Shown here: positions 33,954 to 42,671 of the stretch, piece after piece
Layout: every line of letters starts with the position of its first letter
How positions within the stretch are numbered: position 1 is the first letter of the stretch
Source: Anaerolineales bacterium
GTDB lineage: Bacteria; Chloroflexota; Anaerolineae; Anaerolineales; E44-bin32
Assembly (NCBI GenBank): GCA_037382465.1
Contig: JARRPX010000024.1
Coordinates: 1-44,602, forward strand
Length of the DNA: 44,602 bases
Direction of reading: 5' to 3'
Position numbers and translations under genes: made by a program
The notes under the pieces: model-generated
Database searches by the model: none
Seen by the model: only the letters and a program-made list of their open reading frames with translations
What the model was told of the DNA's origin: nothing

Positions 33954-34688
33954 TCAGTAGGCGTACAGATTGCCGAACGGCCGGGACGAAAACGGGATGA
34001 GTTTGGTGTAGTGATCCTTGAGCAAATCTTTCACCTTCAAGCGCACGTCGCCGCAGTATTCGCGTAGATGCTCCTCGACCGCAGCCATGTCCTCATCCGT
34101 CGGGTCGCGGATGCCGACTTCCTTCCCGACCTGGTACTCCTGCACTTCCCCACGGATGTAGATCGTTCCACCGTGCATTCCGGTGCCGACGTAATTTCCC
34201 ACGCACGAACGCCCGTTCAGTTGATCGATGCCCAAAACGATAATGAGACCTCCCGCCATGTACTCCCCCAGAAAATCGCCTGCACCGCCGCCGATAACGA
34301 TCACAGGTTGTTTATCCTCATAGGATTTCATGTGGATTCCCACACGGTAACCGACATTTCCCCGCACGAAGAGCTTTCCGCCTCGCATGGCGTATCCCAG
34401 GATGTCGCCCGCATCTCCCCTGACGATCACCTTGCCGGCGTTCATCGTGTTGCCCACGCCATCTTGTGCGTTCTCGCTGACTTCGATCGTCGGCCCGTCC
34501 ATAAACGAAGCCAGGGCGTTGCCCGGCACGCCGTTTACCTCGAGGTGCACCTGGGCTTTCAACCCCCCGCCGATGTAGCGTTGGCCGTTCACGTCATCCA
34601 GACGAATGTCCCGCTCTCCTGCGGCCACTGCCTGGCGAATCTTTCGGTTGAGTTCTTGATAATGAACGCCTTTGGCGTTGATTTTCAT
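33954..34688 (-). CDS. glutamate synthase-like GXGXG domain subunit (GltB domain 3)
   Basis: 244 aa composed almost entirely of the right-handed beta-helix found at the C-terminus of the large glutamate synthase subunit: repeats GNTMNAGKVIVRGDAGDILG, GGKLFVRGNVGYRVG, GGGAGDFLGEYMAGG and GTGMHGGTIYIRG. In fused GltB this part is structural, holding the ammonia tunnel. Its ATG (34688) overlaps the stop of the oxidoreductase gene (ATGA). Last gene of the split glutamate synthase-like operon read from 39113 leftwards. Confidence 0.9.
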   Translation of the reverse strand: MKINAKGVHYQELNRKIRQAVAAGERDIRLDDVNGQRYIGGGLKAQVHLEVNGVPGNALASFMDGPTIEVSENAQDGVGNTMNAGKVIVRGDAGDILGYAMRGGKLFVRGNVGYRVGIHMKSYEDKQPVIVIGGGAGDFLGEYMAGGLIIVLGIDQLNGRSCVGNYVGTGMHGGTIYIRGEVQEYQVGKEVGIRDPTDEDMAAVEEHLREYCGDVRLKVKDLLKDHYTKLIPFSSRPFGNLYAY

Positions 34689-35962
34689 AGGTACACCCCT
34701 TCGCCCTCCACAAGATGCTTGCGATAATCCTTCGGCAGGGAAATCAACCCAAAGTCCTCACTCAGGAGCACGTCACGGAAGCTGCTCACGTCCATCTGCT
34801 CTCGAATCAACCCTGTGTAGATGCCCGCCCGGTCGATGTCGCGCACCAGGATCGCGCCTACGATGACGCCGTCACGAAGCACGACTTTCTTATACGCATC
34901 CCGCTTTCGATCGAAATGCTTGAGCACTTCAAGACCGTTCTCTTCCGCCTGCATTATGCCGACGGATATCGTGGGGACGTCGAAAAGTTGGATGGAATTC
35001 ATGGCGAAACTGCCGGGGTACGCTTTACAGCCGCCCGCCATGTTGCACCCCGCAACCCAACCCTGTTTGTACGCATTCGGCCAGATGGCAATCGGACGCA
35101 CCTTGTTGAGCAGAATGTCACGCACTTCGACGACGTCGCCGGCAGCATAGACATCCTCGACTGCCGTCTGCATATGCTCGTCGACCTGAATGCCCTGTGC
35201 GGTCTGAATCGGCGTGTTTTCGACCAGCGAAATGTTGGGCCGGACGCCGATGCCAAACACCACCATTTGACACTCGATGCGGCGGTGGTCTTTAAGCACG
35301 ACACCGCCGATGCGATTCTTGTACTGCAAGATTCGTTCGACGGTGTTACCGGTCACCAGCGCAATTCCCTTTTGCGCCAGCCGTCGTTGGACGATTTCGG
35401 AGGCCTTTTGGTCGAAATTCGCGCTCATGATTCGATCCATGAGTTCGATGATGGTCACTTCGAGTCCGAGTTCGTCGAAGGCCTCAGCGGCCTTGAGTCC
35501 GATCAAACCGCCGCCGATCACCACCACCCGCGACACGGAATACGTCTCGAGATATTCTTGAATCGCCCTGGCGTCGTCCCATCCCATGAGGGTGAAAACC
35601 CCCTTCAATTGGGAACCATCTACCTGCGGCACGACCGCCGACCCGCCCGTGGCGATGAGCAGCTTTTCGAAATTCAACTGCGAACCGTCATCTATTACGA
35701 GACGCCGTTCCAGGACATCCAGCTCGCATACTTCCCTGCCCAGGATCGTGCGAACCCCTTTGCGCTCGTAAAAACCGTCATCTCGATAATACATGCGAGA
35801 TTCGTCTACGTGGCCGGCGAGCAGGTAGGTGATCAAGGGCCGGGAGTAGGCTCGATATTTTTCACGGGAGACGATCACGATTTCGCCCGTGTCGTCTTGC
35901 GAGCGGATCGCCTCCACGGCACCGATTGCCGCGGCAGAATTGCCGATGATCGTGTAACTCAT
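34685..35962 (-). CDS. NAD(P)/FAD-dependent oxidoreductase of the glutamate synthase-like complex
   Basis: 425 aa pyridine-nucleotide-disulfide-type flavoprotein. FAD site at the N-terminus (YTIIGNSAAAIGAVEAIR), NAD(P)H site VVVIGGGLIGLKAAEAFDEL around residue 150, and the FAD-contacting YAAGDVVEV near 290, with a C-terminal dimerisation-like domain. Similar to NADH-oxidase/nitrite reductase small-type reductases. No redox Cys pair is evident. It should bring electrons from NAD(P)H to the Fe-S subunit and FMN subunit. Translationally coupled on both sides (ATGA at 35962 and at 34688). Confidence 0.88.
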   Translation of the reverse strand: MSYTIIGNSAAAIGAVEAIRSQDDTGEIVIVSREKYRAYSRPLITYLLAGHVDESRMYYRDDGFYERKGVRTILGREVCELDVLERRLVIDDGSQLNFEKLLIATGGSAVVPQVDGSQLKGVFTLMGWDDARAIQEYLETYSVSRVVVIGGGLIGLKAAEAFDELGLEVTIIELMDRIMSANFDQKASEIVQRRLAQKGIALVTGNTVERILQYKNRIGGVVLKDHRRIECQMVVFGIGVRPNISLVENTPIQTAQGIQVDEHMQTAVEDVYAAGDVVEVRDILLNKVRPIAIWPNAYKQGWVAGCNMAGGCKAYPGSFAMNSIQLFDVPTISVGIMQAEENGLEVLKHFDRKRDAYKKVVLRDGVIVGAILVRDIDRAGIYTGLIREQMDVSSFRDVLLSEDFGLISLPKDYRKHLVEGEGVYL

Positions 35963-36408
35963 GCGACGACCCTTTCTTCGAAGGTGATCGCCTCATTGGG
36001 ACAGTTCCGAACGCAGACCGGGATTTCCTCCCCCAAACACAGGTCACATTTCGAAGCCACCTTCTTCACTTCCAAATCCCGCTTGATCACCCCAAAGGGG
36101 CACACCATGATGCACATCCAACAGCCCACGCATTTTTCTTCATCGCACAGAACGGCATTCGTCTCTTCATCCCGCTGCATGGCGCCGGTGATACACGCCT
36201 CCACACACGGCGCTTCTTCGCAGTGGCGGCACTGCAGTGCAAACGACAGGTACCCCTGTTCTTCCACCACGAGCATGGCCATGGCGCGCGGAAATTCTTC
36301 CTTGAAGGCTTTTACGATTTTCTTCGACTCCGAATGGCGCACGAGGCAGTGAATTTCACACAACCGGCATCCGATGCAGTACTCCTCGTGAATGTAAATT
36401 CGCTTCAT
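35959..36408 (-). CDS. 4Fe-4S polyferredoxin electron-transfer subunit
   Basis: 149 aa from ATG 36408 (GGGAG upstream); the longer frame to 36669 lies inside the neighbouring gene and is rejected. Four Cys clusters are visible: CIGCRLCEIHC, CRHCEEAPCVEAC, CVGCWMCIMVCP and CDLCLGEEIPVCVRNCP, as in HycB/DmsB-type subunits carrying up to four [4Fe-4S] centres. Stop overlaps the start of the oxidoreductase gene. Expected to wire the flavoprotein to the FMN/Fe-S glutamate synthase domain. Confidence 0.9.
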   Translation of the reverse strand: MKRIYIHEEYCIGCRLCEIHCLVRHSESKKIVKAFKEEFPRAMAMLVVEEQGYLSFALQCRHCEEAPCVEACITGAMQRDEETNAVLCDEEKCVGCWMCIMVCPFGVIKRDLEVKKVASKCDLCLGEEIPVCVRNCPNEAITFEERVVA

Positions 36409-36431
36409 ATACGTCTCCCGAGTTGCTCCGC

Positions 36432-37952
36432 CTACCAAGCTTCGCCGGCCGCTTTGATACCCAGGATATCCAATTCGCTCTGGGTCATTCCGACGCCGCG
36501 CAAGTGTTCCCGATTGCCGCGCAGACTCTCGATGGCGTTGATCCCCATGCCTCCCAGCATTTCTTTGATCTCCAACGACCAACCCCGCAGCAGATTGACC
36601 AGACGCCGCTGGGCGATGTTGGGATTGAGGCGTTTGGTGAGATACGGATCCTGGGTGGCGATGCCCCAATTACACTTGCCCGTGTAGCATTTCTGGCACA
36701 GATGGCAGCCCATCGCCACCAGTGCAGAAGTAGCGATGTAAACCGCATCGGCACCGAGCGCGATCGCCTTGACGATGTCGGCGCTGTTGCGGAAACCTCC
36801 ACCGGCGATGATCGAAGCACGATGGCGAATCCCCTCTTCCCGCAGCCGCTGGTCGACCGCCGCGATGGCCAGCTCGATGGGAAGCCCCACATGGTCACGG
36901 ATCATGGTCGGTGCAGCGCCGGTACCACCGCGCAAACCGTCGATGGCCACGATGTCCGCACCGGCCCGGATGATCCCGCTGGCGATCGGCGCCACGTTGT
37001 GAACCGCAGCGATCTTCACGCTCACCGGTTTGCTATAGCCGGTGGCTTCTTTCAAGGCGAATATCAGTTGGCGCAGGTCTTCGATGGAGTAAATGTCGTG
37101 ATGCGGTGCCGGCGAAAGGGCATCCGTCCCGGCCGGGATCATGCGCGTCTTGGAGATTTCCTCGCTCACTTTCTCGCCGGGCAGATGGCCGCCGATGCCC
37201 GGTTTCGCGCCCTGGCCGATCTTGATTTCGATCGCCGCAGCCACATCCAGATATTCCGCGTGAACGCCGAATCGCCCGGATGCGACCTGTGCGATCGTGT
37301 TTCCGCCGAAACGATAGAAATCCTTATGCAGCCCGCCTTCACCGGTGTTGTAGAAGGTGCCCGCTTTCTGCGCCGCCGCCGCCAGCGCCAAACAGGCGTT
37401 GTAGCTGATCGAGCCGTACGACATGGCGGAGAACAGAATGGGCGTTTCGAGCATCAACTGCGGGCTCAATTCGGTCGTAAGGTCGTAGCCCGCGTTCGTG
37501 CGTGCGAGCGTGACGCGCTCGGGTTTGCTTCCCAGGAAGGTGCGCAGTTCCATGGGCTCCCGCAGAGGATCGATGGAGGGATTGGTGACTTGCGAGGCGT
37601 TGAGCAGCATGCGGTCGAAATACGAAGGCAGCTGCCGGTCACAACCCATTCCGGTCAGAAGGACGCCGCCCGATTCCGCTTGCTTGTAGATGTTCTTGAT
37701 CGTCTGGGCCGTCCAATTGGCGTTGGACTTGTAATGATTCGGATTCTGCATGATCGTGATCGCATTCGTCGGGCACAGCGTGGCGCAGCGGTGGCAACCG
37801 ACGCAGTTGCGTTCGTCGCTGATCACGCAGTCATCGTCCGCATCGTAGACGTGACAATCGTTTGCACATTGACGCACACAGACCTGGCAGGCAATGCAGC
37901 GGTCCATGTCGCGCGCTATTCGAAATTCGGAGGGATAAAGGGATAATGTCAC
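36432..37952 (-). CDS. glutamate synthase-like FMN domain with N-terminal ferredoxin (GltB domain 2)
   Basis: 506 aa from GTG 37952. The N-terminus has two [4Fe-4S] motifs (CIACQVCVRQC and CVGCHRCATLCP). The rest is the FMN-binding TIM barrel of glutamate synthase: LFSAMSYGSIS, NTGEGGL, KIGQGAKPGIGGHLPG, DGLRGGTGAAP and, near the end, CHLCQKCYTGKCNWGIATQ, whose Cys would bind the 3Fe-4S cluster. It converts 2-oxoglutarate plus ammonia (from the glutaminase subunit) to glutamate using reduced Fe-S/FMN. Such separate domain 2 proteins with fused ferredoxin are typical of archaeal-type or ancestral systems. Follows the glutaminase gene by 24 nt. Confidence 0.92.
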   Translation of the reverse strand: MTLSLYPSEFRIARDMDRCIACQVCVRQCANDCHVYDADDDCVISDERNCVGCHRCATLCPTNAITIMQNPNHYKSNANWTAQTIKNIYKQAESGGVLLTGMGCDRQLPSYFDRMLLNASQVTNPSIDPLREPMELRTFLGSKPERVTLARTNAGYDLTTELSPQLMLETPILFSAMSYGSISYNACLALAAAAQKAGTFYNTGEGGLHKDFYRFGGNTIAQVASGRFGVHAEYLDVAAAIEIKIGQGAKPGIGGHLPGEKVSEEISKTRMIPAGTDALSPAPHHDIYSIEDLRQLIFALKEATGYSKPVSVKIAAVHNVAPIASGIIRAGADIVAIDGLRGGTGAAPTMIRDHVGLPIELAIAAVDQRLREEGIRHRASIIAGGGFRNSADIVKAIALGADAVYIATSALVAMGCHLCQKCYTGKCNWGIATQDPYLTKRLNPNIAQRRLVNLLRGWSLEIKEMLGGMGINAIESLRGNREHLRGVGMTQSELDILGIKAAGEAW

Positions 37953-37976: not shown

Positions 37977-39113
37977 CTAGTGCGATAACTGCATCTGGAA
38001 CAATTCCAGGCGCCGCATTGAAGCCGGCGTTTCCACATGCGGTGATTTCAACAGGCCGATCACCGGTTCGCCTGCTCTCGGCATCCAGACCTGCGCCGGC
38101 TTCGGACAGATTTCACGAATGGCGGAATCCTCACTGGCGATGTAGAGCATGTCGCCGTCGCGTGCCGCAATCAGCGGCCTCAGCTTCATGCGATCGCTCA
38201 GTCCCACGATGCCGTTCGCATGACCGATAACCACGGCAAAAGGACCATTGACGAGCGCACTTGCATACACCGTCCGGAGCGTGCGAAAAATTTCACGCTG
38301 CTTTTCGTCCATGCGCTCGATTTCATCCCAAAAATGCGCACAAACGATCTTCGCGGCGATCTCGATGGGCATGCGATGTTTGCGGATGAGCAAATCGAAC
38401 AGGTATGCGAGGACTTCCGTATCCGTGAAACAGGTACATTGATAGCCGAAGTGTTCCAGATAACGTTTATTTATGCCGTAGGAGGAAATCTCGCCGTTGT
38501 GGATCACGCTCCAATCGAGCAAACTGAAGGGATGCGCGCCGCCCCACCATCCCTGGCTGTTGGTGGGAAATCTGCCGTGGCCCGTCCAGATGTAAGCCTG
38601 ATACTCATCCAGGCGATAATACGCCCCGATGTCTTCGGGGTAGCCCACGCCTTTGAAGACTCCCATGTTCTTGCCGCAAGAAGCGACGAAGGCGCCCTCG
38701 ATTTTGGCGTTGATGTCCATCACCATCCGCACGATGGTATCTTCTTCCTCGCCGTCCTGCGCCGACTCCGGCTTAAGCTTCAAAAAATAGCGCCAGAGAA
38801 TGGGAGGATTCGACACGAGTTCATTGCGCCGCGTGGGAATAGGCTCGTCCATTTCGATGGAGCATCTCAACTTGAGATAGGCCTCCGTCTCCGACTTCGC
38901 ATTCGGATGGTCGAGCAGCATGTGAAAGGCGTAGCAGTCGGCGCGTTCGGGATAGATACCGTAAGCGGCAAAACCACCGCCCAGGCCGTTTCCACGCTCG
39001 TGCATGGAAGCCATGGCCGTGATCACGCGATCGCCGGGAATTACCTTTCCGCGCTCGTTCATAAAACCCACGATGCCGCACCCGCTCATATCTTTTTCGT
39101 ACAATTGACCCAT
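37977..39113 (-). CDS. class II glutamine amidotransferase subunit of glutamate synthase-like complex (GltB domain 1)
   Basis: 378 aa from ATG 39113, with GGGAG 7 nt upstream; a GTG at 39131 would be too early for that site. Contains the Ntn glutaminase core: SGCGIVGFMNERG with the nucleophilic Cys, HERGNGLGGGFAAYG, TGHGRFPTNS, HNGEISSYG and FTDTEVLAY. In most class II amidotransferases Cys directly follows the initiator Met; here it is residue 12 (or 4 from an internal ATG), so propeptide removal is needed to free its amino group. First gene of the five-gene operon and the one directly behind the leader attenuator. Confidence 0.9.
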   Translation of the reverse strand: MGQLYEKDMSGCGIVGFMNERGKVIPGDRVITAMASMHERGNGLGGGFAAYGIYPERADCYAFHMLLDHPNAKSETEAYLKLRCSIEMDEPIPTRRNELVSNPPILWRYFLKLKPESAQDGEEEDTIVRMVMDINAKIEGAFVASCGKNMGVFKGVGYPEDIGAYYRLDEYQAYIWTGHGRFPTNSQGWWGGAHPFSLLDWSVIHNGEISSYGINKRYLEHFGYQCTCFTDTEVLAYLFDLLIRKHRMPIEIAAKIVCAHFWDEIERMDEKQREIFRTLRTVYASALVNGPFAVVIGHANGIVGLSDRMKLRPLIAARDGDMLYIASEDSAIREICPKPAQVWMPRAGEPVIGLLKSPHVETPASMRRLELFQMQLSH

Positions 39114-39142
39114 TCCCGTCTCCCACGACACCAGGTGATATT

Positions 39143-39182
39143 AAAAAAGACACCCCGGCGATCCTTCTTGCCGTTGGGCGTC
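39143..39182 (-). terminator. intrinsic terminator in the leader of the glutamate synthase-like operon
   Basis: On the minus strand GACGCCC (39182-39176) pairs with GGGTGTC (39155-39149), and CGGC (39173-39170) with GCCG (39159-39156), separated by an AA bulge, with a 10-nt loop. Six T follow at 39148-39143. This is a textbook Rho-independent terminator located between promoter and first gene, so it can only act as an attenuator. Confidence 0.8.
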
Positions 39183-39192
39183 CTTGCCGAAC
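39173..39192 (-). promoter_or_regulatory. candidate ANTAR-type antiterminator hairpin
   Basis: RNA GTT-C-GGC, hexaloop AAGGAC, GCC-C-AAC: a 3+3 bp stem with a C-C mismatch and a six-base loop with A1 and G4, the features recognised by ANTAR proteins. Its 3' arm is the 5' arm of the intrinsic terminator (39170-39182), so the two exclude each other. A possible first hairpin with hexaloop AAGGGG lies at 39217-39231. Confidence 0.55.
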
Positions 39193-39266
39193 TCAACGTC
39201 TTCGTCGAAGAGAGTCGAGGTCCCCTTACTCATGACCTCGGCCAAACACGTCATCGTGTTAGCCGT

Positions 39267-39294
39267 ATGATAAATGAAAAAATCGGCTTGTCAA
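39267..39294 (-). promoter_or_regulatory. promoter of the glutamate synthase-like operon
   Basis: Minus strand TTGACA (39294-39289), 16 nt, TATCAT (39272-39267). Predicted start near 39260 gives a leader of about 147 nt before ATG 39113. A palindrome AACACG-TCAT-CGTGTT (39245-39260) lies at the predicted start and could be an operator or first hairpin. Confidence 0.65.
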
Positions 39295-39314: not shown

Positions 39315-40040
39315 CTAAGATTTCAGTTCATTGGCCAAAATAATCGCTTCGGCGATCTCGCGCATCGAACGACGGGAATTCATGCTTTTCTTACGCATCA
39401 TTTGAAAGGCATCATCTTCCTGCAGGCCCAAATCCTTCATCAGCATCCCCTTCGCCCGTTCGATTAGTTTGCGCGATTCCAGTTCCTCCCGGATAACTTT
39501 CGAGCGCACCATTAATTCCGTATTTTCGATACAGATCGCGGCCTGGTTGGCCACGGTGGTCAACAAATCCAGCTCGGTGTCCGAGAAGTCGTGCTCGTAG
39601 GAAGTGTAGCAGTTGATCACGCCGATGACACGATCGCGAACTTTCATGGGCACGCTGAGCATGGAGCGCAAGCCCATTTTCTTTGCAAGATCTTTTTCCT
39701 TGTAGCGCGGCTCTTTCAAGACGTCGGGTATGATCGCCGGCTCATCCCGCTGCGCCACGAAACCGACGACGCCTTCGCCCAGGCCGAGGCTCCGTTCCTT
39801 CAGGTAATCCTTGTTCATCGTCTGGGCAGCCCGCACGCGCAGGCACTTTTCATCCTCTTCGATCAACCAGAGCGAACACACCTTGGAGTTCATCGCCTGC
39901 GCGGTCACCGTCACGATGAGGCGCAATACGTCCTCGATGTAGCGGTCAGATGAGATTGCCGCGCTGAACTCCTACAACGCTTGAATTTGTTCCGCATACG
40001 AGATGTCGTGCTCTTCGGACAAACGAGACTCCTTCGCCAT
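39315..40040 (-). pseudogene. GAF-ANTAR transcription antiterminator, interrupted by an in-frame amber codon
   Basis: From ATG 40040 the frame reads MAKESRLSEEHDISYAEQIQ, A, L, then TAG at 39974-39972, then continues in the same frame EFSAAISSDRYIEDVLRLIV through a GAF domain (GLGEGVVGFVAQRDEPAII, SVPMKVRDRVIGVINCY) to a C-terminal ANTAR domain (KLIERAKGMLMKDLGLQED, SMREIAEAIILANEL). The N-terminal text on both sides of the TAG is coherent with the family pattern, where a Tyr or Lys codon is normal at that place. The part after the stop could be made from TTG 39926 or another weak start. ANTAR domains bind paired hexaloop hairpins in nascent RNA; the likely target lies 20 nt beyond its 3' end. 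Confidence 0.8.

Positions 40041-42583: not shown

Positions 42584-42671
<88 letters not shown>

Follow-up and report, generated by a model that had tools for sequence, protein, structure and literature searches.

The leader that precedes a split glutamate synthase operon in this Anaerolineales contig raises the question of whether the GAF-ANTAR gene immediately upstream controls the operon through transcription antitermination, as a first-pass annotation made from the sequence letters had proposed. Here the window denotes the whole stretch of DNA analysed, 44,602 nucleotides. Our analysis indicates that the leader (39260-39114) is very likely an ANTAR-type transcription attenuator of the operon. 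All parts of the switch and the operon lie on the minus strand (Table 1), in the order Elp3-like gene, GAF-ANTAR gene, promoter, leader and five operon genes, which encode in turn an amidotransferase, an FMN synthase domain, a ferredoxin-like protein, a FAD oxidoreductase and a GXGXG domain. The gltB1-type gene begins at ATG 39113 with GGGAG ahead of it, a GTG upstream (39131) being likewise open, and the true start of the ferredoxin-like subunit probably lies inside the frame given for it. The first-pass annotation had proposed checking its reading by folding the leader, by looking in related leaders for A1/G4 hexaloops and covarying stems on the terminator, and by searching with covariance models, and the results of all three are reported below.

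Table 1. Coordinates of the regulator, leader elements and operon genes in the window, and of tandem leaders in Latescibacterota loci.
Feature	Coordinates	Strand	Support or remark
GAF-ANTAR regulator gene	39315..40040	-	Pfam GAF 2.2e-22, ANTAR 1.3e-21
Sigma-70 type promoter TTGACA-16-TATCAT	39267..39294	-	11/12 consensus matches
First leader hairpin AACAC-GAUGAC-GUGUU, candidate P1 by position and stem	39245..39260	-	Best window match of model R2, 11.7 bits
Candidate P1, weak hairpin with hexaloop AAGGGG (39227-39222)	39217..39231	-	A1/G4 fit, -1.8 kcal/mol
Small hairpin UCUUC-GAC-GAAGA in linker between AAGGGG hairpin and P2	39199..39211	-	Sequence
P2, putative antiterminator hairpin GUUCGGC-AAGGAC-GCCCAAC, A1/G4 hexaloop	39173..39192	-	Overlaps terminator 5' arm
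Intrinsic terminator hairpin and T6	39143..39183	-	In minimum-energy fold; -19.8 kcal/mol for hairpin stretch scanned
gltB1-type gene, class II glutamine amidotransferase part of split glutamate synthase	37977..39113	-	Pfam GATase_2
gltB2-type gene, FMN glutamate synthase domain with 4Fe-4S	36432..37952	-	Pfam Glu_synthase 1.4e-142
4Fe-4S ferredoxin-like subunit	35959..36669	-	Pfam Fer4_11 1.9e-17
FAD/NAD oxidoreductase subunit	34685..35962	-	Pfam Pyr_redox_2 3.6e-59
gltB3-type GXGXG domain subunit, last of operon	33954..34688	-	Pfam GXGXG 2.6e-34
Tandem Latescibacterota leaders	L249 5668-5800, L250 2825-2945, L251 1888-2009, L252 1633-1753		

The anatomy first read from the sequence, a TTGACA-N16-TATCAT promoter, a leader of about 147 nt and a terminator with T6 about 30 nt before the start codon, was confirmed in its coordinates. 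The TTGACA (39294-39289) and TATCAT (39272-39267) elements flank a 16-nt spacer, the -35 element lying 20 nt from the end of the GAF-ANTAR gene (39315), and sites with 11 of 12 matches occur twice in the whole window, the second preceding tRNA genes at 42584. From a transcription start estimated at ~39260, the leader extends ~147 nt to the ATG and holds a terminator hairpin (~39183-39149) followed by T6 (39148-39143), the end of which is 30 nt ahead of the ATG. RNA folding of the full leader favors the terminator fold over the alternative by ~8.7 kcal/mol, and in the nascent RNA up to 39165 the P2 hairpin (39192-39173) is part of the minimum-energy fold. The two folds are mutually exclusive, and the energetics of the leader are those of an attenuator; because the nascent RNA holds P2 and the full leader favors the terminator, folding supports a switch.

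The alternative hairpin with loop AAGGAC, which the first-pass annotation had recognized as sharing the terminator's 5' arm, is borne out by both sequence and folding. P2 has an energy of ~-6.1 kcal/mol, resembles the Latescibacterota P2 (GGGC-AAAGGA-GCCC) and presents, on the 5' arm of a terminator, the A1/G4 loop expected of ANTAR targets. With thresholds that were set after the leader had been seen, so that the figures are upper estimates of its unusualness, a P2-like hairpin arises in 0.7% of shuffles and a P1+P2 pair in 0.06% (terminator fixed, upstream part shuffled), while among 172 strong terminators scanned across 442 kb of the same genome two carry a P2-like hairpin and one, that of this leader, carries the pair. 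A 37-codon open reading frame also spans the whole leader (39254-39141, minus strand) and ends at the T-run, a length reached in 1.9% of shuffles; we found in it no Shine-Dalgarno sequence, codon run or Pfam match. Such a frame, together with the weakness of P1 described below, would fit an ordinary attenuator or terminator outside ANTAR control, operated for example by another factor or by a leader peptide, in which the A1/G4 loop arose by chance. We consider this explanation improbable, as P2-like hairpins are rare on the terminators scanned in this genome and this one lies beside the sole ANTAR gene. Clear elements also occur in relatives that share these neighbors, and the leader frame lacks the features named above.

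Two hairpins are candidates for the upstream partner, P1, and neither is secure. The AAGGGG hairpin that had been put forward as the partner of P2 does carry an A1/G4 loop, but its stem is weak and, as the first-pass annotation itself cautioned, a 7-bp stem (39240-39216, -9.6 kcal/mol) outcompetes it, so that its formation costs ~3.5-4 kcal/mol. The 5'-most leader hairpin occupies the position of P1 in relatives; its loop starts with G, and in the predicted fold it has six base pairs and an AUGA tetraloop. A G at the first loop position may be tolerated, because G4 touches the protein and A1 does not (PMC8934654). A good stem and an A1/G4 loop are combined in neither candidate. In Elusimicrobia, the leader of an amt gene (L247 11231, minus strand) has a P2-like hairpin, ACAGGC, with a terminator, and its upstream hairpin has the loop GGAGAA, which begins with G like that of the window's 5' hairpin. 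The linker from the AAGGGG hairpin to P2 measures 24 nt, and folding gives an alternative small hairpin in the stretch of it (39199-39211) that holds the hairpin listed in Table 1. Linkers in the eut leaders of Enterococcus faecalis measure 5-12 nt, with 14 nt impairing function (PMC3369931), and linkers of 2-25 nt were accepted for actinobacterial elements (PMC8164766). By analogy, an Elusimicrobia element with a hairpin inside its linker offers a possible precedent for the long linker in the window.

The gene upstream encodes a protein with both a GAF and an ANTAR domain and is the single ANTAR gene of the 3.7-Mb genome, adjoining the leader. Its ANTAR domain aligns to EutV without gaps and keeps the RNA contacts R142, K143, E146, K149, E160, R168, M172, N173 and R175 (list from PMC8934654), with K147, Y164 and R177 changed to R, F and S, respectively. 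The position and domains given in the first-pass annotation stand, but it had missed an amber codon: codon 23 of the full 241-codon frame is an in-frame TAG (39974-39972), so that the frame is not intact; its open part runs from 39315 to 39971, TTG 39926 being the next start codon beyond the TAG. Relatives can be aligned on either side of the TAG, codon 23 falling in a conserved stretch. TAG is not plainly reassigned, because it terminates 4 of the 24 window genes, and no suppressor tRNA was found in the window. The codon may reflect an error in the assembly, initiation at TTG 39926 or a disrupted gene.

This amber codon, lying where relatives are conserved and in a genome where TAG still ends genes of the window, is one argument that the locus may instead be a decaying ANTAR module, with a leader descended from an ANTAR attenuator, a broken regulator, a P1 that has decayed to its present weakness and a terminator that merely lowers expression constitutively. 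Against such decay, the remainder of the protein is intact and mostly keeps its RNA-contacting residues, P2 and the terminator are themselves intact, a TTG 39926 start would retain most of the GAF domain and all of the ANTAR domain, and a single wrong consensus base is possible in a draft assembly. We therefore regard decay as unlikely and continue with the reading of a functional attenuator. The GAF domain of its regulator most likely reports nitrogen status. The closest solved structure is the GAF domain of PtsP (3ci6), and weak NCBIfam matches of the protein include PtsP and NifA; the GAF domain of PtsP, the nitrogen phosphotransferase enzyme, is reported to bind glutamine (PMC4848567), and this kinship in PtsP and NifA would suggest, by analogy, glutamine as the signal. 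As of 2012, no GAF-ANTAR protein had been characterized (PMC3369931).

Related genomes show the regulator family among similar neighbors. The nearest relatives of the window's GAF-ANTAR protein, at 46-53% identity, come from Latescibacterota (52-53%), Geothermocultor (~49%) and Elusimicrobia (47%); close GltB1 relatives occur in the same genomes, with the best three coming from the three Latescibacterota (the window's gltB1-type product is 62% identical to Latescibacterota). At these loci, dual hairpins with overlapping terminators stand beside genes for GAF-ANTAR, gltB, glnA, amt and guaA, and several of the leaders have a TTGACA-type promoter immediately ahead of the element, like the window. 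The order in Latescibacterota locus L249 is GAF-ANTAR, element, gltB-type gene, second ANTAR, glnA and gltB1, and in L252 the element precedes the GAF-ANTAR gene itself. In Geothermocultor (L248) the order is gltB1, gltB2, gltB3, GAF-ANTAR, element, amt gene and further elements, and in Elusimicrobia (L247) elements follow the GAF-ANTAR gene and precede glnA, an amt gene lying in between, with a further element ahead of the GAF-ANTAR gene. Seven genomes of the same order as the window, all of one family, have GAF-ANTAR, a textbook dual hairpin, an overlapping terminator and glnA, with P2 ~70 nt before glnA and a GAF-ANTAR protein that, as compared here, shares ~33% identity with that of the window. 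This conserved association of GAF-ANTAR genes, dual hairpins, terminators and nitrogen genes supports the earlier proposal that the adjacent gene would control the leader.

The Latescibacterota leaders are tandem, a dual hairpin and terminator being followed by a third hexaloop hairpin and a second terminator. In L251 (219-2047, minus strand), an ANTAR element separates the GAF-ANTAR gene from guaA; the product of guaA, GMP synthase, uses glutamine and is not among the customary targets of ANTAR control. A dual hairpin, again overlapped by a terminator, comes immediately after the Geothermocultor GAF-ANTAR gene (L248 11558-11590), ahead of an open reading frame of ~170 codons.

The stems of such elements covary: across 11 related elements, which belong to relatives and are not orthologues of the window leader, and which were chosen by a hairpin scan that favors pairing and aligned at their stems by N-padding the linkers by hand, 98% of cells are paired and 27 double changes are found, versus 9.6 in shuffles. 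Leaders with A1/G4 hexaloops and covarying stems on the terminator thus exist among the relatives. Our search for an orthologous leader of the same operon in a close genome found none, and neither a dual hairpin nor a terminator is present in the leaders immediately ahead of gltB1 in Latescibacterota (L062-L064), the element lying instead further upstream, beside the GAF-ANTAR gene.

Covariance models gave a mixed answer. A model built from five same-order elements (R1) misses the window leader, whereas the best window match of a broader model of relatives built without the window (R2) falls on the leader but is weak, at 11.7 bits and E 0.35 (0.0013 if 171 nt are searched). The R2 alignment takes the 5' hairpin as P1 and leaves the real P2 unused, P2 being matched separately at 5.1 bits. 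In a search of the whole genome, R2 did not report the leader, its only match (17.2 bits) lying inside a coding frame, and around the other 75 GltB1 loci it gave no convincing match. When R1 and R2 were run on many genomes with ANTAR genes from the presumed phylum, convincing elements were confined to one family, the weak matches mostly having no terminator. No Rfam family matches the leader at threshold, the best score, 11.2 bits, falling short of the cut-off of 36. That result bears on the possibility that a metabolite riboswitch controls the leader, which a long structured leader ahead of amino-acid metabolism genes might bring to mind and which we consider highly improbable; the Rfam negative carries limited weight here, since the textbook ANTAR elements of relatives match no Rfam family either.

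For the attenuator, we infer protein binding, direction of control and signal. Without active regulator, RNA polymerase starting at ~39260 would form the terminator (39183-39143) and halt before the first gene. An active GAF-ANTAR protein would capture the emerging hexaloop hairpins, above all P2, which would then retain the terminator's 5' arm and allow transcription to proceed into the operon.

The neighboring Elp3 is up to 71% identical to genomes of the same family, and the G+C content of the window (57.2%) is close to that of a genome sample (56.6%), so that the contig looks native; the same two observations argue against contamination. No ANTAR domain and no close GltB1 were found in the other genomes of the family that were searched, and, given the closer kinship to other phyla, sequence comparison suggests that the GAF-ANTAR/GltB1 module may have been acquired horizontally. 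More tentatively, and with considerable doubt, we propose a one-component switch in which the GAF-ANTAR protein would sense glutamine directly and release neighboring genes for glutamate synthase, glutamine synthetase and the ammonium transporter from termination. The module would have moved among Latescibacterota, Elusimicrobia, Geothermocultor and the lineage of the window, and a hairpin embedded in the linker would allow its unusual spacing.

These findings extend ANTAR antitermination to several little-studied bacterial phyla apparently without coverage in the cited ANTAR literature, and connect GS/GOGAT and the uptake of ammonium with a GAF-ANTAR family; if the GAF domain does bind glutamine like that of PtsP, the leader and its regulator would form a direct glutamine-to-transcription switch. 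The idea of ANTAR control of glutamate synthase is not itself new, because ANTAR elements were predicted in 2012 before glutamate synthase genes in Desulfotomaculum reducens, as they were for the nitrogen regulon of D. acetoxidans (Ramesh et al., 2012, PMC3369931). Novelty, which the first-pass annotation had seen in the organism group, accordingly appears confined to the phyla, to the GAF-ANTAR family and to the conserved module that links it to nitrogen genes. As in the window, dual hexaloop hairpins were predicted in Desulfotomaculum before glutamate synthase and other nitrogen genes, and the wider search of that study found terminators overlapping the elements (PMC3369931); the window differs in its phylum, in the GAF-ANTAR gene directly upstream and in its less clear P1. 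The EutV/eut leaders of Enterococcus faecalis share the P2 hexaloop on the terminator and largely the same ANTAR residues (PMC3369931, PMC8934654), but EutV is a phosphorylated response regulator, whereas the window's regulator has a GAF domain as its sensor and the linker is longer. The NasR/nasF leader of Klebsiella, in which a one-component sensor-ANTAR protein relieves termination of a nitrogen operon (PMC3369931), matches the role predicted for the window's protein, with the difference that NasR senses nitrate through a NIT domain and the window's regulator has a GAF domain in its place.
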